Source: Methanofollis formosanus
Lineage (GTDB): Archaea > Halobacteriota > Methanomicrobia > Methanomicrobiales > Methanofollaceae
Direction: 5' to 3'
DNA: 64,000 nucleotides
Assembly: GCF_019633745.1 (NCBI RefSeq)
Contig: NZ_CP037968.1
Span: 2,486,789-2,550,788, forward strand
The stretch's first letter is position 1. Every line of letters begins with the position of its first letter. The notes under the pieces were generated by a model that saw only the letters and a program-made list of their open reading frames with translations, did no database searches and was not told where the DNA came from. Positions 10,025-61,722 of this stretch are shown in pieces. Position numbers and translations under genes: made by a program.

Positions 10025-10301
10025 TGTAGAATCGGGCATGAACCCTGGGTTCAAGCATACGCGATGAAAATGTATCGTTGTTCAATCGCTTTTTTTCAAG
10101 ACCAAAGAACCGGTGGGGATCGTGTTCCATCGCCGCCCCCACCTATCTTCTGTCCGTGGGGGGTCCGGGGGGTGCAACCCCCCGGCGCGAGATTCCGGGA
10201 CAGATTCTGCGATGAGGGCGGCACGCCTGATCATCACACCTTCCTCCATCCTCCCGCCGGGGGCTCTGCCTCCGGACTCCCGTGGCGATAGAGCCGGGAA
10301 G
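10025..10301 (+). repeat. Repeat composite A-B-C (long form)
   Basis: This composite fills the gap 9929-10470. Module A (about 10025-10075) holds the perfect palindrome TGAACCC-T-GGGTTCA followed by AAGCATACGCGATGAAAAT. Module B (10132-10224) is bounded by GCCGCCCCC and GGGCGGCAC and contains CTATCTTC, an inner GC-rich hairpin (GGTCCGGGGGG / CCCCCCGG) and CGCGAGAT. Module C (10239-10301) is bounded by CTTCC and GGGAAG with a CCGGGGGC/GCCTCCGG hairpin. Copies recur throughout the window. I see no credible gene in this gap; 10302-10470 holds no other feature apart from sequence leading to the next start. Confidence 0.85.
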
Positions 10302-10470
10302 ACATAATTGATGAACCGAAAGGAGGTATTGTCATCTCCACCTATCCTGATGCGGGTAGATCAGGGAGCGGCCAACTCCCCGCACAAAACCCACTTCGGA
10401 TAATTGCCCCAGAGCCCGTGCGTTCAGTTGACGATTCAGATTCTTCTTTTGTCTCTCTTGATTCTGTTAG

Positions 10471-24639: not shown

Positions 24640-25415
24640 TGGTGCCGTCCCCCGCCCTATCTTCTCGCGAGAAGGCAGAACAGATTCATTGATCCGGAAC
24701 GGCACATTGATCATCATCACCCCCATCCCCGCGTCGGGGACGCTGTCCCCGATCGCCGGCATGAAGATAGGGGTGGGAAGGGCGTGTCAGAAAAAACCGA
24801 TCACTTCTTTCAGAGCAGAACAGCGAGAGGCACACCGTTCCATCGCCGCCCGCTGGCTATCCTCTCGCGAGACAGCAGAAAAGATTCGGTGATGGGGGGA
24901 CGGCACATTGATCCCCACACCCGTCCCGCCGTCCCGAACCCAAAGATAGAAGCGGGACGGGAAATCGCTGATCATTTTTTAGGGAGATCACGCGTGGTGC
25001 CGTCCCCCGCCCTATCTTCTCGCGAGACGGTAGAACAGATTTATTGATCAGGGACGGCACATTGATCCCCACACCTGCCTCTCCGTCCCGACCCCTATGA
25101 TTGATCCAGAACGGAAGAGTGCTGCTCTCCCCTCAGCGGGATCACGCGCTCCTTACCGTCCCCTGCCCTATCTTCTCGCGAGACGGCAGAACAGATTCAG
25201 TGATCAGGGACGGCACATTGATCACTCTATCCTCCTCCTCATCCCGACCCAGAAGATAGATCCCGGACGAGAAGGGGTCGATCACTTTTCAGTGGGATCA
25301 CGCTCCAGGCCGCCCCCAATCGCAGACTCTTCCCCGCCATCTCGCGCCGGGGGGTTTCACCCCCCTGACCCCCCACGGACAGAAGATAGGGAGGGGCGGC
25401 AACGAAGGGGTGATC
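24640..25415. repeat. Tandem array 1 of alternating short B and C modules
   Basis: Gap 24567-25580 holds no credible gene. CTATCTTCTCGCGAGA-type B cores occur at about 24657, 24857, 25012 and 25168. Each is bounded by GTGCCGTCCC-like and GGGACGGCAC-like arms and separated by segments containing CCCGACC...AGATAGA and a GATCACG box. Spacing is about 155 bp for the last three. At 25310-25405 lies a long-form B in opposite orientation with the GGGGGGTTTCACCCCCC hairpin. The two strands carry only short frames whose peptides repeat with the DNA, so I treat them as non-coding. Confidence 0.85.
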
Positions 25416-25483
25416 CCGGGGGCATACCGCTCAGAAGGCAGAGCAAGGGTCCATGCACACACCGGAGAGCCACAGGGATTTTC

Positions 25484-27321: not shown

Positions 27322-28614
27322 TTACCAGATCTCTCCCCTCCTGTCCACAACATGACGGGCCTTCCCCTCGAAGCGCGGGAGGGAACCCGGCTCAACGAGT
27401 CTCACCGTTGTCCTGAGGTTGAGGCTCTCCTTGATCGCCCCGGCCACCTTCCGCTGGAGGCCGGCAAGGTCGGCGAGTTCGCCGCTGAAACTTTCGCGGT
27501 TCATCTCCACCTCGATCGTCATCTCGTCAAGATGATTGATCCTGTCCACATATACCATGAACTGATCGCCGACCTCCGGGATGGAGAAGAGGGTGTGCTC
27601 GATCTGCGAGGGGAAGACGTTGATCCCCCTGATGACCAGCATGTCGTCGGCCCGCCCGGAGATCCGCGCGAGGCGCTTGCCCCGTCTGCACGGGCAGGCG
27701 TCCGGGATGATCCTGGTGATGTCGCCGGTCCGGTACCGCACGAGGGGCATCGCCTCTTTGACGAGCGGGGTGATGACGAGTTCGCCCTTCTCGCCATCGG
27801 GCAGACGTTCGCCGGTCTCGGGGTCGATGATCTCGGCGAAGTAGAAGTCGTGCCAGAGGTGGAGGCCGTCGTGCTCCGGGCACTCGAAGGCGGCGCCGGG
27901 GCCGTACATCTCGCTCATGCCGTACGAGTCGAAGGCCTCGACCCCGAGCCTGGTCTCGAGTTCTTTTCTCAGGTTCTCAGACCAGGGCTCGGCGCCGAAG
28001 ATCCCGATCCGCAGGGAGTCCAGGGACGCGCCCATCTCCTCGGCCACCTCGGCGAGGTGCATCCCATAACTCGGGGTGCAGTGGATCGCCGTGACGCCGA
28101 AGTCGTCGATCATCTCGATCTGCCGCCTGGTGTTGCCGGTGGCGCTCGGGATCACCGTGGCCCCGATCTTCTCCCCTCCGTAGTGGAAGCCGAGGCCGCC
28201 GGTGAAGAGGCCGTAGTTCACAGCGTTCTGGAAGACGTCCTCGTCGGTGAGGCCGATCATGGTGAGGTTGCGGGCGATGAGCTCTGACCAGTTGTCCAGG
28301 TCCTGCCTGGTATACCCGACGACCGTCGGTTTCCCGGTCGTCCCGGAGGTGGTGTGGATCCGCACCACCTGTTTCATGGGGACGGCGATGTTGCCGAAGG
28401 GGTAGCCGTCCCTGAGTTCTTTCTTGGTGGTGAACGGGATCTTTTCGATGTCGTCGAGGTGCTGAATGTCGGCAGGGGTGACGCCGGCATCCCTGAACTT
28501 CTTCTGATAGAACTCGACATTCTGGACGTGGTTCACCGTCCACTTCAGCCTGGAGAGCTGCAGCGCTTCGAGGTCGGTCTGGGAGATCGTCTCCATTTCT
28601 TTGTTCCAGAACAT
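27322..28614 (-). CDS. paaK: Phenylacetate-CoA ligase-like AMP-forming enzyme (copy 2)
   Basis: About 430 residues from ATG 28614 (MFWNKEMETISQ), preceded by AGAGGATAGGG. The frame is open further upstream, but that extension is low-complexity intergenic sequence. Same family and layout as the downstream copy: TTSGTTGKPTVVGYT, FDSYGMSEMYGPG, and RADDMLVIRGINVFPSQIEH. The pair are clearly paralogues but diverged, and may activate different aryl acids (for example phenylacetate and indoleacetate). This is the first gene of the paaK-paaK-ACT transcript, and it starts next to repeat array 2. Confidence 0.9.
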   Translation of the reverse strand: MFWNKEMETISQTDLEALQLSRLKWTVNHVQNVEFYQKKFRDAGVTPADIQHLDDIEKIPFTTKKELRDGYPFGNIAVPMKQVVRIHTTSGTTGKPTVVGYTRQDLDNWSELIARNLTMIGLTDEDVFQNAVNYGLFTGGLGFHYGGEKIGATVIPSATGNTRRQIEMIDDFGVTAIHCTPSYGMHLAEVAEEMGASLDSLRIGIFGAEPWSENLRKELETRLGVEAFDSYGMSEMYGPGAAFECPEHDGLHLWHDFYFAEIIDPETGERLPDGEKGELVITPLVKEAMPLVRYRTGDITRIIPDACPCRRGKRLARISGRADDMLVIRGINVFPSQIEHTLFSIPEVGDQFMVYVDRINHLDEMTIEVEMNRESFSGELADLAGLQRKVAGAIKESLNLRTTVRLVEPGSLPRFEGKARHVVDRRGEIW

Positions 28615-28814
28615 GTGTACCCTATCCTCTGCCAGGCGGCCGCTCCGCCCTGAGATGGTATGAAAAATGTTGGTCGTCGGGCCCCAATAACCTTGCCATG
28701 GCGTGACGTGGCATGCCGCCTCGGGGTGCGGGTGTCGGGTCGTCACCCGGTATGCTCTTCAATCGCTCCGGTGGTTGCACGGTCGTAGGAATTGCCGGAA
28801 GTGATCGTAAAAAC

Positions 28815-30415
28815 GCGTGATGCCGTCCCTGCCTATCCTCACGCGAGACGGCAGAACAGATCGTGCGAGGGGTGGCGGCCTGTTCTGATCATCACGCTTT
28901 CATGTTGTCATGACCCCGAAGATTGACCCCGGACGGGAGAGGGCCGATCTTTTTTCAGAGGAGCACACCACCCATCGCCGCCCCCCCGCCTATCTTCATG
29001 CGAGACGACAGAAAAGATTCTACGATGTGGGCGGCACGTCTGATCGTCGAATCTTTCCCCGTTGTCATGACCCTGGCAGGGAGAGCACCGATCGATTCTC
29101 AGCAGGAACATGCGTGATGCCGCCTCCGCCCCATCCTCGCGCGAGACGACAGGGAAAATTCGATGATCAGGGACGGCACATTCTGATCATCACGCTGTCC
29201 TGTTGTCATGACCCCGAAGATAGAACCAGTAAAGAGGAGGGCCGATCTTTTTTGGAGGGATCACGCGCCGTGCCGTTCCCCGCCCTATCTTTTCGCGAAA
29301 TGGCGGAACAGATCCGAAGATGAGGGGGACGGCACGTTCTGATCATCGTACCTTTCCTGTCGGCATGACTCCGAAGATAGAACCTGGCCCAGAAAGGGGC
29401 GATCCCTTTCCAGCGGGATCACGCGCTCCGTCCCGTCCCCTGCCCTATCTTCACGCGAGATTGCGGGAAAGATCGATGATGAGGGGGACGGCATGTGGTG
29501 ATCATCACACTTTCCCGTTGTCATGACCCCGAAGATTGACCTCGAACGGGAGAGAGCCGATCATTATTCCGCAGAGGAGCACGCCGCTCCGTGCCGTCCC
29601 CCACCCTATCCTCTCGCGAGATTGCGGGAAAGATCTGATGATGAGGGGGACGGCACGTTCGGATCGTCACACCGCCCTGCCGTCATGATCCCGAGGATAG
29701 AACCAGAACTGGAGCGGGCCAATCTCTTCTCAACAGGATCACGCGCTCGTGCCGCCCCCCGTCCTATCCTCTCGCGAGATGGCAGAACAGATTCGATGAT
29801 CAGGGGCGGCACATTCTGATCATCACGCTGTCCCGTTTTCATAACCCCGAAGATAGAACCAGTAAAGAGGAGGGCCTATCTTTTTTGGAGGGATCACGCG
29901 CCGCGCCTTTCCCCGCCCTATCTTCACGCGAGATTGCGGGAAAGATCTGATGATGAGGGGGCGGCATGTTCTGATCAGCATGCCGTCTTGTTATCATGAC
30001 CCCGAAGATTGACCTCGAACGGGAGAGAGCCGATCATTATTCCGCAGAGGAGCACACCGCTCCGTGCCGTCCCCCGCCCTATCCTCTCGCGAGATGGCAG
30101 AACAGATTCGATGATCAGGGGCGGCACATTCTGATCATCACGCTGTCCCGTTTTCATAACCCCGAAGATAGAACCAGTAAAGAGGAGGGCCTATCTTTTT
30201 TGGAAGGGATCACGCGCCGTGCCGTCCCCCACCCTATCTTTTCGCGAAATGGCAGAACAGATCTGGTGAAGGTGGGACGGCACATCGATCACCCCACCTG
30301 TCCTGTCGTCGCGACCCCGAAGATAGAACCTGGCCCAGAAAGGGGGGATCCCGGCGCGAGACGTCGGTGAGGGTTCTGCAAGAGGGGCGGCACGTCTGTT
30401 CATCACGCCTTCGCA
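28815..30415. repeat. Tandem array 2: about ten ~155-bp units of alternating B and C
   Basis: B cores (CTATCTTC/TCGCGAGAT and variants) lie at about 28833, 28990, 29131, 29285, 29445, 29606, 29764, 29918, 30079 and 30234, spacing 141-161 bp. Each B has inverted ends (GTGCCGTCCCC / GGGGACGGCAC). Between them is a second segment with TCCCGTT / AACGGGA arms around CATGACCCCGAAGAT, then a GGATCACGCG box. Some neighbouring units are nearly identical over the full period (for example about 29520-29680 and 29995-30130). The last partial unit ends near 30395. No gene is supported between 28615 and 30456; short frames here are by-products of the repeat. Confidence 0.9.
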
Positions 30416-30456
30416 CTCAATCGTGTCGACGGGCGCCACCCCTCTCGTTAGCGATT

Positions 30457-31368
30457 TCAGGGACGCCCTCTCCTCACCCTGGGATCCCCGGCCGCAAGGG
30501 CGAGGGCACGGGCGCGGAGGGCGCTCTGCTCCTTGTCCTTCACCTCGAGCATCAGGTCGAAGTCGTGGGGACGAGAGGCCGCGAGGAAGGCGGCGAAGTG
30601 CGTGGGGTCGAGGGCGGCGGCGTGCCGGCCGCGCCGCGCCCCGGGTGCCTGGGAGGAGTAGTCGACCATCAGGGGCCCGTCGTCAAGGGGGTCCCAGGTT
30701 GCTGCGCAGGCCGCGAGCGCCCCGGCCGCGTCCTCCCCGGAAGAGTTGCACTCGTGATGGAAGACGTCGAAGACGACCGGCACCCCGCAGGCCCGGTGGA
30801 GGGCGAGGCAGTCTCTCACGGTGTACAGCCGGTCGTCGTTCTCGACGACGAGCCGCCGCCCGACCGCGCCGGGCAGCGTGCGGTAGCGCTCGACAAACCG
30901 CTCCATCGCCGCCTCCCGGTCACCGTAGACCCCGCCGACATGGACCTGGACCTTTGCGGTGGTGTCCAGCCCCATCGCGTCGAGGGCCGCCGCGTGGTAC
31001 GCCAGTTCGGCGACGCTCCTCTCCCGGACCCCCTCGTCGGGAGAGTTGATGAGCGTGAACTGGTCCGGGTGCATCGAGACTCGCATCCCGTTCTCCCGCA
31101 CCACCGCCCCGATCCCGGCGAACTCCTCCGCGAAGATACCGGGCCAGTCGAGGATGTTCACCGGGTGGGAGGCGAAGGGAACGAGGTCTGAGGTGACCCT
31201 GAAGAAGAGGAGTTCGTGCGCCGCGTTGTACGCGAGGATCCTGGAGAGACAGGAAAGGTTCTCTGCGACTGTGGAGAGGAACCGCTCCTCGCTCCAGGAC
31301 TTCAGCCTGAACGTCCGGGCCGAGGTGCAGCCGATGCCGGTGTTCATGCACGGGTACCCGATCCGCAT
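30457..31368 (-). CDS. uvsE: UV damage endonuclease UvsE/UVDE
   Basis: About 303 residues from ATG 31368, with an in-frame GTG directly before it. UVDE is a TIM-barrel nuclease that nicks 5' of UV photoproducts. Counting from that GTG, the expected metal ligands are in place by comparison with the Thermus enzyme: His69 (FASHP), His101 (MHPDQF), His144 (VQVHVGG), Glu177 (VVENDD), Asp202 with His205/206 (FDVFHHE) and Glu276 (LMLEVKDKE). Length is standard. It lies 41 bp downstream of a diverged paralogue and ends beside repeat array 2. A DNA-repair role is well supported. Confidence 0.93.
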   Translation of the reverse strand: MRIGYPCMNTGIGCTSARTFRLKSWSEERFLSTVAENLSCLSRILAYNAAHELLFFRVTSDLVPFASHPVNILDWPGIFAEEFAGIGAVVRENGMRVSMHPDQFTLINSPDEGVRERSVAELAYHAAALDAMGLDTTAKVQVHVGGVYGDREAAMERFVERYRTLPGAVGRRLVVENDDRLYTVRDCLALHRACGVPVVFDVFHHECNSSGEDAAGALAACAATWDPLDDGPLMVDYSSQAPGARRGRHAAALDPTHFAAFLAASRPHDFDLMLEVKDKEQSALRARALALAAGDPRVRRGRP

Positions 31369-31409
31369 CACGGCAGATGGGCAGGTGCGCTCATAACCCT
31401 TTCCCGCGG

Positions 31410-32255
31410 TCAGTGGCGGACCGTCATCAGTGGCGCCCCCCTGAGCCGCAGGTCGTCCCGCGCTACCCGGCGTGCGGTGAGGGCCGACCGCTCCCTGTCC
31501 TTGAAGAGGAGCATGACGTCGATCTCCCGCGCCGCCGGGGCGGTGGCCGCAAGAAAAGATCTGAACGCCGCAGGGTCGACCGACTGGGGGTGCGGGACGC
31601 CCGGGTCAAGGGAACCGTAGAAGACGATCGGCGCGCCGTCGCCGCTCTTCCAGGTGAGGGCACACTCCCGGACGCCCTCGCCGGGGTCTCCGCCGGCCTG
31701 GTGGTGGTCGTAGGCCACCGGCACCCCGCAGGCCTGGCCAACGGCACAGCAGTCCCCGACTGTGTGGATGCGGTCGTTCCTGATGACAAGCCGCCGGGTC
31801 ACCGCTTCGGGGAGGGCGTCATATTCCCGGCAGAACGATGCGGCAACACTCTCTGCCTCCCCTCTGCCGTTGATCCTGACCGGGATCTTTGCCGTCGTGT
31901 CAAGACCCATGGCGTCGAGAAGGGAGGCGAGATGCGCCAGATCCGCGGCCCGCCGCTCCGCGGCGAGGGCGGCCCTGGCCGGGCAGGCCGCGATCCGCAT
32001 GCCTTTCTCCTTCACATAGGCCCCGATGGCCGCGAGGCACTCCGAGTATTCAACGACAAGGTCGGGTAAGGTCTGGTGCGGGATGAGCCGCGGACTGATC
32101 GCGAAGAAGGAAAGGCCCGCCTTTTCATTGAACTCGAGGGTTCTCGCCAGGCAGGCAAGATTCTCGACGGCAATCGCCTCCGCCTCCTCCTTTGAGAACA
32201 GGTCTTTTATGGGTCCGATGGTAAGGTTGGCACAGGGGTACCCGATCTTCATCAT
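31410..32255 (-). CDS. Degenerate UVDE paralogue, metal site largely lost
   Basis: A 281-residue protein homologous along its length to the adjacent UvsE: both begin MMxIGYPC, and both have DAMGLDTTAK and a KDxExSAL block near the end. Aligning the two by eye, His69 becomes Leu63, His101 becomes Cys91 (RIAACPARA), His144 becomes Arg127, Glu177 becomes Arg159 (LVIRNDR) and Glu276 becomes Leu250. Asp183-His-His is kept. The frame is intact, so it is probably a pseudoenzyme with a structural or DNA-binding role rather than a dead gene. It overlaps the upstream small gene by 4 bp (ATGA). Confidence 0.85.
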   Translation of the reverse strand: MMKIGYPCANLTIGPIKDLFSKEEAEAIAVENLACLARTLEFNEKAGLSFFAISPRLIPHQTLPDLVVEYSECLAAIGAYVKEKGMRIAACPARAALAAERRAADLAHLASLLDAMGLDTTAKIPVRINGRGEAESVAASFCREYDALPEAVTRRLVIRNDRIHTVGDCCAVGQACGVPVAYDHHQAGGDPGEGVRECALTWKSGDGAPIVFYGSLDPGVPHPQSVDPAAFRSFLAATAPAAREIDVMLLFKDRERSALTARRVARDDLRLRGAPLMTVRH

Positions 32256-45737: not shown

Positions 45738-46460
45738 ACCGCGTATGCTTGAGCCGGGTGGGGGTTCATGCCAGATTCAATACGGTCGATTTTCGAGGAA
45801 ACCAATGCCAACGAGTTCGAGAAAGCGCCGGGCTCTCGATGAAATCTCCTGCGCGGGCGAGGGGGAAGGTGAAGGATCTGCCCCTGCCACAAGATCGGGG
45901 GTTTCGGCTCGACAAACGGGACAATTGCGAGATGGCTGCCGATCTGATCGGCGTGCCCTTCCCCGCCCTTCAAGCATACCGGATGAAAATTTTTCGTCAC
46001 TTGATCTCTCCTTTTCAAGACGGGAGAATCGGTGGAGATCGTGTTCCATCGCCGCCCTGCCCCTATCTTCGTCGTGAGGGGTCGAGAGGTTCAACCCTCC
46101 GGCGCGAGATTGCGGGAACGAGTCTGCGATGAGGGCGGCACGTAGGATCATCTCGCCTTCACGCACCCTCCCGCCGGGGGCCCCGCCCCCGGCCCCCCCC
46201 GGATGAAGATTGGGGCGGAAGGCGAGATGATCCGATGTGCCGCCCTCATCGTAGAATCGTTCCTGGAATCCCGTACCGGGGTTTTTCACCCCCCGGACCT
46301 CCCACGACGAAGGTGGGTGGGGGCGGCAATGAAGTGGTCGCTCTATGTGGTGTCCTGCTCCGAAGAGGGAACAAGGATCCACTCGCCAGAGACCACCAGG
46401 AATGTTCATCGCGTATGCTTGGGTCCGGGGCCCATGTCCGATTCAACAGGGTCGGATTTT
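45738..46460. repeat. Inverted repeat composite A'-A-B-C-B'-A'
   Basis: In order: reversed A (about 45738-45785, CGCGTATGCTTGAGCC and GGTTCATGCC), forward A right half (45968-46000, TCAAGCATACCGGATGAAAA), forward long B (46050-46141), C (about 46155-46225, with the CCGGGGGC hairpin), reversed long B (about 46233-46340) and reversed A (about 46404-46455). The block 45966-46455 is therefore roughly symmetric about module C. No gene is supported in it. Confidence 0.8.
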
Positions 46461-47882: not shown

Positions 47883-47924
47883 GTGGGCGATTTCTCGGGG
47901 CGGGGCAGTCAGAAAATGTGCGGC

Positions 47925-48022
47925 CTGCCGCCCCCGTCTATCTTCTGTCCGTGGGGGGTCCGGGGGGCAACGCCCTCCGGCGCGAGACGGAGGTGAAGAT
48001 TCTGCGATTGGGGGCGGCACGT
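47925..48022 (+). repeat. Repeat module B (long form)
   Basis: GCCGCCCCCGTCTATCTTCT begins the element, with the GGTCCGGGGGGCAACGCCC hairpin, GCGCGAGACGGAGG and right arm TTGGGGGCGGCAC ending near 48020. It lies 43 bases beyond the xerA stop in the same orientation. The rest of gap 47883-48301 holds a C-like fragment (CTTCCCTCATGCTTGCGCC, about 48037-48055) and a TATA-like CATAAACTCTAT near 48217 that may drive the next gene. Confidence 0.75.
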
Positions 48023-48301
48023 CTGATCGACGTGTCTTCCCTCATGCTTGCGCCAGATGCTCTTTGAAGGCGCCGATATTCGATGGTCGGGCTGAGGGGT
48101 GCGCCGGCTCATGCCCTGTCCTGCGAGGCCAAAAAAATCGTTTTCTCAGGGAAAATCTTCTGGACCTGCTCGTGTTGTCATCCGAATTTTTGTCCCGTCT
48201 GCCCCTCCCCGACGTCCATAAACTCTATGTTGCTATACGGATGCGCCCCCGCCGATACCTTCATTCCAGCGGAGGTCCACCGGTCTCCGGGTGAGATCCA
48301 A

Positions 48302-51340: not shown

Positions 51341-51635
51341 GGCTGCGTTCATGGAGCGAGAGCACGCCTCAGGCATACCACATGGAAAATTTTTATGGTA
51401 AACTCTTGATCGCTCCCCTCGTGCCGGGGTGACGAACAGGAATGGAGCACCGTGCCGCCCCGCCCCTATCTTCGTCGTGGGGGTCCGGGGGCGGAACCCC
51501 CGGTGCGAGACGGCAGAACAATTTCTCCGAACAGGGGGCGGCATGTCTGGATCATCATGCCTTCCCTCATGTTCGTGCCGGGGGCGCTGCCCCGAAATCC
51601 CTGGGATGGAGATAGGGCCGGGAAGGCATCTCGGG
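51341..51635 (+). repeat. Repeat composite A-B-C
   Basis: It starts about 24 bases after the marC stop. A (about 51341-51395) has GAGAGCACGCCTCAGGCATA and CATGGAAAATTTT. Long B (51451-51543) carries CTATCTTCGTCGTGGGGGTC, GCGAGACGGCAGAACAATTT and the arm GGGGGCGGCAT. C (51560-51632) runs from CCTTCCCTCATG to CCGGGAAGGCAT with a CCGGGGGCGCTGCCCCG hairpin. The remainder of the gap to 51822 shows nothing further. Confidence 0.85.
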
Positions 51636-51822: not shown

Positions 51823-52035
51823 TTATTGCACGGTCACATAGGACGCGAAGGACTGCGGCTCAGGCACGGGGAGACCGTCTTCGATCAGTCCCCTGACATG
51901 CATCTCGATGGCGACCTGCATGTTCTCCTCTGCTTCCTCCCGCGTCTTCCCGGTCGCCACGCAACCGGGGAGGTCGGGAGAATATGCCGAATAGTTCCCT
52001 TCCGTCTTTTCGATAACGATGAGGTATCGATACAT
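51823..52035 (-). CDS. hicB: HicB-family antitoxin
   Basis: About 70 residues from ATG 52035 (MYRYLIVIEKTEGNYSAYSP), the start that fits both the family and the GAGG located at 52045-52048. Upstream in-frame ATG and GTG codons at 52041 and 52044 are less likely. The partial RNase H-like fold is shown by YSAYSPDLPGCVATG and TREEAEENMQVAIEMH. It should neutralise HicA. It has no C-terminal DNA-binding domain, so any operon control would need this core or the complex. Encoded directly after hicA. Confidence 0.9.
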   Translation of the reverse strand: MYRYLIVIEKTEGNYSAYSPDLPGCVATGKTREEAEENMQVAIEMHVRGLIEDGLPVPEPQSFASYVTVQ

Positions 52036-52040
52036 TTTCA

Positions 52041-52229
52041 TCACCTCTTTAGTCCTGCCTGTTTTAAAATACTATTCAGTGTTCCTGGGGCAAGATTCTC
52101 TGAGGGATGGCCGGCGATGGTGATCCGCCCCGGTTTTATCGGGTGTTTATACTGGCGGTGGCTCCCTCTGGTAGCGACCAGGTACCACCCGTTTGCCTCT
52201 ATCAGGGAAATGACCTCTCGCACTCTCAT
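52041..52229 (-). CDS. hicA: HicA-family toxin (mRNA interferase)
   Basis: A 62-residue protein from ATG 52229 (MRVREVISLIEANGWYLVAT). The double-stranded RNA-binding-like fold of HicA is shown by RGSHRQYKHP with the catalytic His, and by ITIAGHPSENLAPGTLNSIL. HicA cleaves mRNA when free of HicB. The toxin-first order hicA-hicB is usual for this family. The longer open frame to 52310 is upstream leader. An inverted repeat lies upstream at 52326-52342. Confidence 0.93.
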   Translation of the reverse strand: MRVREVISLIEANGWYLVATRGSHRQYKHPIKPGRITIAGHPSENLAPGTLNSILKQAGLKR

Positions 52230-52325
52230 GGGATCTTCAGATATAGGAACAATTCGTGGTGTTGGATTGCGATTCTTGTATCTTCTGTGGGAGGAGGTGG
52301 GGAGGTGCAACCTGTGGGAGCATAA

Positions 52326-52386: not shown

Positions 52387-52653
52387 TTATTTGGAATCAT
52401 TATATTTCGGGCGCTGACCTTTATGATTACGTTTATATGTGGAAATCGCTTCACTTTCTTCATTTAATGCTCTTGATCGTGATCTTTTCGCAGTGTAAGT
52501 TATTGAAGTGAATTTTTTTCCAGAACGAACATGCTCACCTAGACGACGATCAATGTCGTTTGTAATGCCGTGATACACGGTTTTTTTACCATCTTTAAGG
52601 GTGTAGTTGTGTGTGTTTCTCTTTTTTCGAGTTGGTTTTCTTTTTGGGGGCAT
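52387..52653 (-). CDS. GIY-YIG nuclease-like small protein
   Basis: An 88-residue basic protein from ATG 52653 (MPPKRKPTRKKRNTHNY). It follows the GIY-YIG pattern: NYT at 16-18 in place of GIY, YHG at 27-29 in place of YIG, then the catalytic-type Arg in DRRLGEH (36-37), Glu in ALNEESEAI and a final Asn (PKYN). The two altered signature triplets leave activity uncertain. Base composition is much more AT-rich than the rest of the window, indicating recent acquisition. A UvrC/homing-type or restriction-like role is possible. Confidence 0.7.
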   Translation of the reverse strand: MPPKRKPTRKKRNTHNYTLKDGKKTVYHGITNDIDRRLGEHVRSGKKFTSITYTAKRSRSRALNEESEAISTYKRNHKGQRPKYNDSK

Positions 52654-52783
52654 TAATATCAAGTAGAAATAGAGTATGACAATCAAATATAATTATTGGT
52701 GAATGTATGTTGAATAATTTTTATTTGAGTCTTCTATCTTTATGATAGACCATATGAACAATCGCTAATAGACGAAATAAGTA

Positions 52784-59541: not shown

Positions 59542-61722
59542 TCAGACCATCATGGCAAGTGTCACGACATCGTCGTAGTCGATTTCGCCGTTTCCGTTGA
59601 AGTCGAAGAGTGCAACCAGGTTGTTCTCCTCGATCCACTGCATGTTGGCAAAGAACGCGACGACGTCGTCATAATCGACAATACCGTTCCCGTTGATGTC
59701 CTCGTACTTCCCGTCGCCGTTCGGGTCGGTCGGTGAGTTTTCGTAACCCGGGAACGGCGGCGGCGGTGTGATGGTGATGCTGGCCGGCGTGGTCGGCGGG
59801 AAGAATGCCGCACCGCCGTCCGCGTCCATCACCCGCACCTCGACCAGAAGTTCGGCAGTCCCTGCTCCCTTCCCCTCGATGGTCACCGTCCCGAGTACCA
59901 CGTTGGTGGCATTGGCCTGGATCGAGTCGTTGAGATCGACCGCCTCCATCCATGCCGTGGAGTTCGGGAGCAGCGAGGTCTCGTTGAGAAGTGCCCATTC
60001 AGGGAAGGTGATCGCGGTGATGTTCGCGGTGGCCGGGTCGCTGATGCTCAGGTTCAGCGAGTACCCGGCAAGTCCGTCCACCGCTGAGTCGAGGACCAGG
60101 TCAAGGGTGGTGACGTTCCCGGCCGGAATAGTGACGGTGGACGGTACGAATGAGATACCGACCGGCAGCGGTGCGCTGGAGACGTTGATGTAGCCCTCCT
60201 TGACCATGGTGTCGGTCTCATTCGCTTCGTCCGCGACGGTGAGACTGACAGTGTAGGGTCCCGCCTCCTCGTAGGTGTGGAACGGGTTCTGCTCGGTCGA
60301 GTTGGTGCCGTCGCCGAAGTCCCACTCCCACGCCGTCACGTTCCCGGTCGAGAGATCGGTGAAGGTGACGGCAAGAGGTGCGTTCCCTGTGGTGGTGTCT
60401 GCCTCGAAGTCCGCGGTCGGTCCGACCGGCGGCACCACGCCTGAGACGTTGATGTAGTCCTCTTTGACCATGGTGTCGGTCTCATTCGCCTCGTCCGCGA
60501 CGGTGAGACTGACAGTGTAGAGTCCCGTCTCCTCGTAGGTGTGGAACGGGTTCTGCTCGGTCGAGTTGGTGCCGTCGCCGAAGTCCCATGCCCATGCGGT
60601 CACGTTCCCGGTCGAGAGATCGGTGAAGGTGACGTTGAGCGGTGCTTCGCCCTCGGTGGGATCGGCCTCGAAGTCTGCGGTCGGCCCGACCGGCGGCACC
60701 ACGCCTGAGACGTTGATGTAGTCCTCTTTGACCATGGTGTCGGTCTCATTCGCCTCGTCCGCGACGGTGAGACTGACGGTGTAGAGTCCTGCCTCCTCGT
60801 AGGTGTGGGCCGGGTTCTGCTCGGTCGAGTTGGTGCCGTCGCCGAAGTCCCATGCCCACGCGGTCACGTTCCCGGTCGAGAGATCGGTGAAGGTGACGTT
60901 GAGCGGTGCCTCGCCCTCGGTGGGATCGGCCTCGAAGTCTGCGGTCGGTCCGACCGGCGGTGCCGGTCCGCCGCTGACCATGATGTAGTCCTCTTTGACC
61001 AGAGTGTCGGTCTCATTCGCCTCGTCCGCGACGGTGAGACTGACCGAGTAGATCCCGCCCTCCTCATAGGTGTGGACAGGGTTCTGTTCGGTTGAGTTGG
61101 TGCCGTCGCCGAAGTCCCACTCCCACGCCGTCACGTTCCCGGTCGAGAGATCGGTGAAGGTGACGTTGAGCGGTACGACGCCGACCGTCACGTCGGCCTC
61201 AAAGTCGGCCGCAAGTCCGGCCGGCGGCACCTCGCCGGTGACATTCAGTTCACCCGGCACAACGGTGGCGTTGTACGGCGTTCCGTTGACATCTTCGATC
61301 GACTCGGGCGTGACATTGATCGCGCTCATCCCTTCCACGTCGCCGCGTACGGTGACGGTGCAGAGCGTGATGTTCGTCTCACCCGCGAGCCCCTCGGGGT
61401 CGAACGCCTGTGCCCAGACGGAGTCTGCAGGCAGCGATCCGTTCTCAGGCTCAAAGGCCCACTCCGAGAAGTTCAGGTCGACGATCTCCGCGATCTCCGG
61501 GTCTTCGATGCTGATCGTGATGTTGAACCCGGCCAGCCCCTCCGGGGCGGCGTCCAGAATTACTGCAAGGTCTGTGGTCTCGTTGAGCATCACCTCAGCC
61601 GACTCGGGCATGAGCATGATGGAGACCGTCTCATTCCCCTGGTCCTGTGCCAGGGCCCCCTGTGTTCCGAAGACACAGAGGATAACGATGCCGAGAAGCG
61701 GCATAATACGCTTCACGTTCAT
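59542..61722 (-). CDS. Exported cohesin-like/PKD/dockerin-like protein
   Basis: A 726-residue protein with a signal peptide (IMPLLGIVILCVFGTQGALA). A cohesin-like domain (about 32-165) is followed by four PKD domains (about 170-510, each with WDFGDGTNSTEQNP and VSLTVADEANETD). A second cohesin-like domain (about 515-640: SLNLSISDPATANITAITF) and a C-terminal dockerin-like pair of calcium loops (DPNGDGKYEDINGNG and FDFNGNGEIDYDDV) complete it. No membrane anchor at the C-terminus. It probably joins a surface complex by cohesin-dockerin contacts with its neighbours. Confidence 0.87.
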   Translation of the reverse strand: MNVKRIMPLLGIVILCVFGTQGALAQDQGNETVSIMLMPESAEVMLNETTDLAVILDAAPEGLAGFNITISIEDPEIAEIVDLNFSEWAFEPENGSLPADSVWAQAFDPEGLAGETNITLCTVTVRGDVEGMSAINVTPESIEDVNGTPYNATVVPGELNVTGEVPPAGLAADFEADVTVGVVPLNVTFTDLSTGNVTAWEWDFGDGTNSTEQNPVHTYEEGGIYSVSLTVADEANETDTLVKEDYIMVSGGPAPPVGPTADFEADPTEGEAPLNVTFTDLSTGNVTAWAWDFGDGTNSTEQNPAHTYEEAGLYTVSLTVADEANETDTMVKEDYINVSGVVPPVGPTADFEADPTEGEAPLNVTFTDLSTGNVTAWAWDFGDGTNSTEQNPFHTYEETGLYTVSLTVADEANETDTMVKEDYINVSGVVPPVGPTADFEADTTTGNAPLAVTFTDLSTGNVTAWEWDFGDGTNSTEQNPFHTYEEAGPYTVSLTVADEANETDTMVKEGYINVSSAPLPVGISFVPSTVTIPAGNVTTLDLVLDSAVDGLAGYSLNLSISDPATANITAITFPEWALLNETSLLPNSTAWMEAVDLNDSIQANATNVVLGTVTIEGKGAGTAELLVEVRVMDADGGAAFFPPTTPASITITPPPPFPGYENSPTDPNGDGKYEDINGNGIVDYDDVVAFFANMQWIEENNLVALFDFNGNGEIDYDDVVTLAMMV
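60187..61244 (-). repeat. Four 264-bp coding repeats (PKD domains)
   Basis: Within the gene above, starts near 60187, 60451, 60715 and 60980 give a 264-bp period. The units share long identical tracts (for example around GATGTAGTCCTCTTTGACCA and CCCGGTCGAGAGATCGGTGA), the middle two being almost identical. This points to recent duplication or gene conversion and a potential for copy-number change. Confidence 0.85.

Follow-up and report, generated by a model that had tools for sequence, protein, structure and literature searches.

A nearly species-specific set of extragenic hairpin arrays in Methanofollis formosanus, probably derived from a genus-wide quasi-palindromic element

In the BIME-2 elements of bacteria, modules of inverted palindromes are multiplied head-to-tail (PMC2817692), and BIME-2 and REP sequences, known from enterobacteria and Stenotrophomonas, lie in convergent and unidirectional gaps between genes (PMC3733652). 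Big families of kindred tandem arrays without coding content are rare in prokaryotes: among 142 archaeal and 119 bacterial genomes, Subirana and Messeguer (2019) found families of long repeats in only two species, Leptospira interrogans and Methanocella conradii, whose dispersed non-coding satellites have repeat lengths of 37-69 bp and about 5-6 arrays per family (their Table 2, PMC6749651). A third point of reference is the intergenic, G-rich recurrent potential G-quadruplex repeats (rPQS) of Methanomicrobiaceae, including Methanofollis sp. FWC-SCC2, about half of which sit in tail-to-tail gaps and only 11% in head-to-head ones (PMC8044849). Here we consider an array of hairpins in M. formosanus, which we call array 2, and for which we found no description in the literature searched. 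Our reading, to which we give a probability of roughly 70%, is that it belongs to a set of BIME-2-like extragenic arrays that spans the genome, is nearly confined to this species and descends from an element found throughout Methanofollis.

Array 2 lies in a window of 64,000 nucleotides, positions 2486789-2550788 of the single 2.97 Mb contig of this genome, and consists of ten head-to-tail units of about 157 bp with two hairpins each, running from 28816 to about 30350 (Table 1). All ten cores of hairpin B were recovered where a preliminary description of this sequence had placed them, and the tandem arrangement it reported is borne out both by Tandem Repeats Finder, which returns higher-order periods of 315 and 473, spanning two units and three, and by autocorrelation, with peaks including 155, 315, 473 and 633. 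Its span of 28815-30415 holds for the units only as far as ~30350; the last 66 bp are a remnant of the genus-wide element, with ~79-85% identity to many loci in congeners, and contain no unit. Within a unit, a GATCATCAC linker connects hairpin B (GTGCCGTCCCC ... GGGGACGGCAC) to hairpin C, which is weaker, and a T-rich linker containing more GATC sites completes the unit. The proposed alternation of B and C palindromes thus stands in part: the B arms are real, complementary at 13 of 13 positions in the best unit (29590/29645) and over 10-11 bp in other units, while the C palindrome (TCCCGTT...AACGGGA) is well formed in some units only and its arms do not co-vary. Across the units of array 2 and of a second array in the window, array 1, the alignment has 32 invariant columns and a mean column identity of 62%. 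A CRISPR array, with identical short repeats and unique spacers, had already been discounted, and we concur, as the 157-bp unit is repeated whole and the repeats are diverged. A coding repeat is likewise ruled out, since the periods of ~136 and ~157 bp found in this genome are not constant multiples of three and the gene caller predicts no gene there; the sequence is periodic and non-coding.

Table 1. Hairpin units, related elements and flanking genes; positions count from the first nucleotide of the window.
Feature	Position	Strand	Remark
Phenylacetate-CoA ligase type gene (AMP-binding), left flank	27322..28614	-	array 2 upstream of gene
Unit 1: hairpin B, hairpin C, linker	28816..28972	+	array start is left arm of hairpin B
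Unit 2	28973..29113	+	unit alignment
Unit 3	29114..29268	+	unit alignment
Unit 4	29269..29427	+	unit alignment
Unit 5	29428..29587	+	unit alignment
Unit 6	29588..29746	+	best hairpin B; arms 29590-29602 / 29645-29657 100% complementary
Unit 7	29747..29901	+	92% identity to unit 9; block duplication, offset 315
Unit 8	29902..30060	+	3' half common to unit 5; block duplication, offset 473
Unit 9	30061..30216	+	unit alignment
Unit 10, linker partial	30217..30349	+	unit alignment
Remnant of genus-wide two-hairpin element, right edge of array 2	30350..30415	-	66 bp
UvdE-type UV endonuclease gene, right flank	30457..31368	-	array 2 downstream of gene
Array 1	24640..25330	+	first element longer, still with its inner C hairpin (24640-24790); 3 units follow
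Right half of genus-wide element, adjoining array 1	25308..25480	-	
Single genus-type element	10064..10339	+	
Single genus-type element	45998..46231	+	
Single genus-type element	47893..48056	+	
Single genus-type element	51402..51629	+	

The same unit recurs throughout the genome. With up to 3 mismatches allowed, the B core has 309-316 copies in 2.97 Mb and none in a reversed control, which excludes chance, and besides singletons these copies form 48 arrays of 3-12 units, each array essentially in one orientation. The array count comes from 424 kb chosen around arrays and holding 234 of the 309 strict cores, and is therefore a minimum of at least 48 and not a full census; by extrapolation the genome-wide total is estimated at ~50-60. 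The period is sharply bimodal, at ~136 and ~157 bp, the short form being without ~20 bp of linker, and by a three-phase test 25 of the 48 arrays, about half, begin with the left arm of hairpin B. GATC is twice as dense in arrays as elsewhere, and TGATCA, TCATGA and TCGCGA are 9-16 fold denser. The 11 congeneric Methanofollis genomes hold 0-5 cores each. Phages, plasmids and viral contigs yielded no match to the unit, which rules out carriage by any of them, and the pattern of a composite transposon, with arrays around one recurring gene, was not seen. Around the phenylacetate-CoA ligase gene, no similar long-period array was found at 57 loci (619 kb), mostly from other Methanomicrobiales. The closest named relative of the ligase that flanks array 2 comes from a Methanofollis MAG.

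What the genus does share is a parent element of ~430 bp, with two hairpins like those of the unit, each carrying an extra GC-rich inner hairpin. Of 12 Methanofollis genomes, that of M. formosanus included, 11 have it, against 0 of 14 genomes of other Methanomicrobiales. Its two hairpins are homologous and mutually inverted around a TGATCA linker, which makes the element quasi-palindromic, and its profile matches copies on both strands. Judged from its sequence, the array unit is a shortened parent element minus the inner GC-rich hairpins. Between parent and unit, stem B changes from GCCGCCCC/GGGGCGGC to GCCGTCCC/GGGACGGC and stem C from CCTTCCC/GGGAAGG to CCGTCCC/GGGACGG, both compensatory by eye; these changes suggest that the parent element relied on pairing, probably at the level of DNA. 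Being short, non-coding and quasi-palindromic, this element is reminiscent of the MITE, ERIC and RUP types; it differs from them in that a search of this genome for Y1 transposases gave no cognate enzyme and no target-site duplication was found at the empty sites described below, where intergenic divergence blurs the junctions. Ordinary MITEs are not known to form head-to-tail arrays of ten units.

How, then, do the arrays compare with the described systems? With BIME-2 and REP they share head-to-tail modules of alternating inverted hairpins, hundreds of copies, variability between related genomes and an extragenic, promoter-avoiding position, mostly in convergent or unidirectional gaps (PMC2817692, PMC3733652). 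They differ in their archaeal host and in a unit of ~157 bp, against REPs of 20-40 bp with short spacers, and in the transposase: a search for the Y1 family (PF01797) in 12 Methanofollis genomes found a RAYT domain in 6 of them but none in that of M. formosanus. A RAYT-driven BIME is thus not supported here and we do not file the arrays as REP or BIME, though they resemble BIME-2 in their working. Like the Leptospira and Methanocella satellites they are families of non-coding long-repeat arrays spread over one genome (PMC6749651), and 46 of the 48 arrays have at least four repeats; they differ in their number, at least 48, in the divergence of their units and in a parent element that can be traced. 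With rPQS they share an intergenic, orientation-independent occurrence and a like bias in gene context (PMC8044849). In the parent element, the G-rich inner hairpin (GGGGGGTCCGGGGGG...CCCCCC) looks similar to rPQS; C3TC3 was not seen in the copies read. The array unit is without this hairpin and does not show the four G-runs followed by C3TC3.

At orthologous sites the sister species have an empty gap, one parent-type element or an array with fewer units. At 2552116 an array of ~920 bp corresponds to a gap of 95 bp in the sister genome G005 and of 100 bp in a second one, G003; at 849867, 1442 bp here stand against 94 bp in G005; and at 2604494, 1410 bp here stand against 18 bp in G005, with a single element in G003 and a near-empty site in the outgroup G009. 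Other sites are intermediate: at 447781 the outgroup has 22 bp and G005 375 bp with part of an element, whilst the seven units at 2630448 face an orthologous array of three units in G005. At the site of array 1 (24640-25480), Methanofollis sp. STE_20 (L026/L145) has one to two units; this site is thus shared. At the site of array 2, both G005 and G003 carry an element and, in addition, two genes, one for an SdpI/DUF1648 protein and one small ORF, both missing here; the array occupies the place of these two genes, the gap (28615-30456) being nearly equal in length, ~1.8 kb, to its counterparts in the sisters (L143:5586-7355 and L144:5623-7437). By parsimony we infer that arrays were gained in this lineage, with loss in the sisters possible locus by locus.

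These young sites hold old diversity. Units within an array differ by 0.24 per site, with neighbours at 0.42 in the variable columns and a mean identity of 72% between adjacent units. Fourfold-degenerate sites differ by 0.173 between this species and G005, so a single founder at the site did not give rise to all units of an array. A raised mutation rate in the repeats could be an alternative source of this diversity; hypermutation of a diversity-generating or RIP-like kind is ruled out, as the substitutions have an ordinary spectrum, rich in transitions and involving more than one base. Different arrays have tracts of 100-365 bp in common, 90-96% identical and arbitrary in phase and ends; duplications of several units occur inside arrays, and shared exact words are longer than under a column-shuffle null. 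Together these observations point to ectopic gene conversion plus block duplication, and the arrays were probably assembled in this way from an old and diverse pool.

One could argue instead for a transposable element that inserts as a ready-made multi-unit array with the help of its own transposase, perhaps by the rolling-circle route put forward for RAYT and BIMEs. This would account for array sites only 18-100 bp long in sister species, for a start phase fixed in about half of the arrays and for internal diversity older than the site. Against it stand the missing Y1/REP transposase domain, which several congeners possess, and the target-site duplication that was not found; moreover, just seven pairs of units from different arrays reach 90% identity or more, which means that there are no recent whole-array copies. 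We regard such insertion as possible but doubtful.

The proposal of array growth from the genus-wide element would run as follows. The short form of the parent element probably multiplied in this lineage into at least 48 (an estimated ~60) head-to-tail arrays of 3-12 units. Arrays would grow by unequal recombination or replication slippage, in multi-unit blocks, and units that had already diverged would reach a site from other arrays, through ectopic gene conversion or break-induced copying. They would act at the level of DNA and persist mainly as selfish or near-neutral repeats, tolerated by selection downstream of genes and purged from promoters. The motifs conserved in loops and stems, CTATCTTCTCGCGA, AAGAT, TGATCA and TCATGACCCCGAAGAT, are most simply candidate recognition sequences for a putative protein that moved or binds the parent element; that highly conserved motifs are unpaired points to recognition of sequence. 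More tentatively, and with less confidence than we place in array 2 being one of a set, we could speculate that an archaeal, array-forming palindromic element seeds multi-unit arrays at new, mainly convergent intergenic sites, using non-RAYT machinery and a genome-wide pool of diverged units.

The gene context of the arrays, based on genes from a custom codon-usage caller, is markedly biased. The 48 arrays occupy 22 convergent, 24 co-directional and 2 divergent (promoter) gaps, against 29, 168 and 55 among unit-free gaps (chi-square p about 1e-8), and relative to co-directional genes they show no strand preference (12 vs 12). Such a pattern is as expected of DNA elements tolerated downstream of genes and not in promoters. 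Gyrase, IHF or Pol I are the proteins bound by BIME-2 and REP sequences, and BIME-2 with DNA gyrase in E. coli offers a model for another explanation, in which the arrays are predicted to bind proteins and serve the host in DNA topology, absorbing supercoils between convergent genes or binding a nucleoid or gyrase-like protein. The strong preference for convergent gaps would fit, as would the enrichment of the conserved short palindromes TCGCGA, TGATCA and TCATGA, the conserved loops, which could equally reflect selected protein binding and hence a host function, and the two spacings, 136 and 157 bp, which come close to 13 and 15 turns of the helix. However, the spacing varies by several bp within each mode, and promoter avoidance by itself can produce an equal bias in context. 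The arrays are also nearly absent in congeners and missing at orthologous sites, and so are not needed by close relatives. On balance we consider a topological role unlikely; the nucleoid-protein binding array raised in the preliminary description is possible.

Another suggestion was a structured RNA, here taken to include a 3' UTR regulator, each unit being transcribed and folding into two hairpins. Units do fold a little more stably than their shuffled versions, with a mean z of -1.5 and values below -2 in 32% of units but 3% of random 157-mers, and stem B has some compensatory pairs, its covariation exceeding shuffles at pairs 7 and 8 only, in a test that ignores relatedness. Yet the 12:12 orientation, together with the gap bias, argues against a transcribed 3' UTR element; an arm-swap test was marginal for stem B and gave nothing for stem C or for loop-loop pairing (CTATCTTC/GAAGATAG); and stem C is without covariation while the conserved loops are unpaired. 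Neither mutual information nor RNAalifold yielded a consensus fold, the signal being dominated by misalignment near gaps, no terminators were found, and the lack of an Rfam match rules out a known RNA family. An RNA function thus seems very improbable. As for a chromosome-organising, segregation or replication locus, which a large array of palindromic sites might call to mind, one or a few conserved loci would be expected, and the idea, refuted for a unique locus, is hardly credible for at least 48 similar arrays that are almost confined to one species, are not conserved in the genus and have sister sites that are empty or hold one element.

The preliminary description had also raised the possibility of a recombination hot spot, and this is partly supported by the tracts shared between arrays and by rearrangements relative to G005, two of which break at arrays. 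At 1250321/1258104 (L097) and 846840/852653 (L083), the DNA lying between arrays or elements is inverted or rearranged when compared with G005, which suggests recombination between arrays.

If our reading of a Methanofollis-derived array set holds, it separates BIME-like array formation from RAYT, the enzyme usually held responsible. With ~60 arrays in one archaeon, and the parent element, empty sites and intermediates readable in its sisters, the birth and spread of a satellite becomes directly testable.

Some further features deserve mention. An HNH endonuclease gene resembling type II restriction enzymes (L097:8350-9414) sits between two arrays, in an otherwise gene-poor stretch of 4 kb. 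Within the window, two UvdE-type UV endonuclease genes lie side by side on the minus strand at the right flank of array 2 (30457-32255), and genes for a HicB-like antitoxin and a HicA toxin, also on the minus strand (51823-52310), lie beside a low-GC stretch at 52-53 kb (40% GC) with a weak GIY-YIG ORF at 52387-52686. Four tandem 264-bp repeats with 89% matches (60179-61236), in a minus-strand ORF of 726 aa, encode 88-aa protein repeats and are unrelated to the hairpin arrays.
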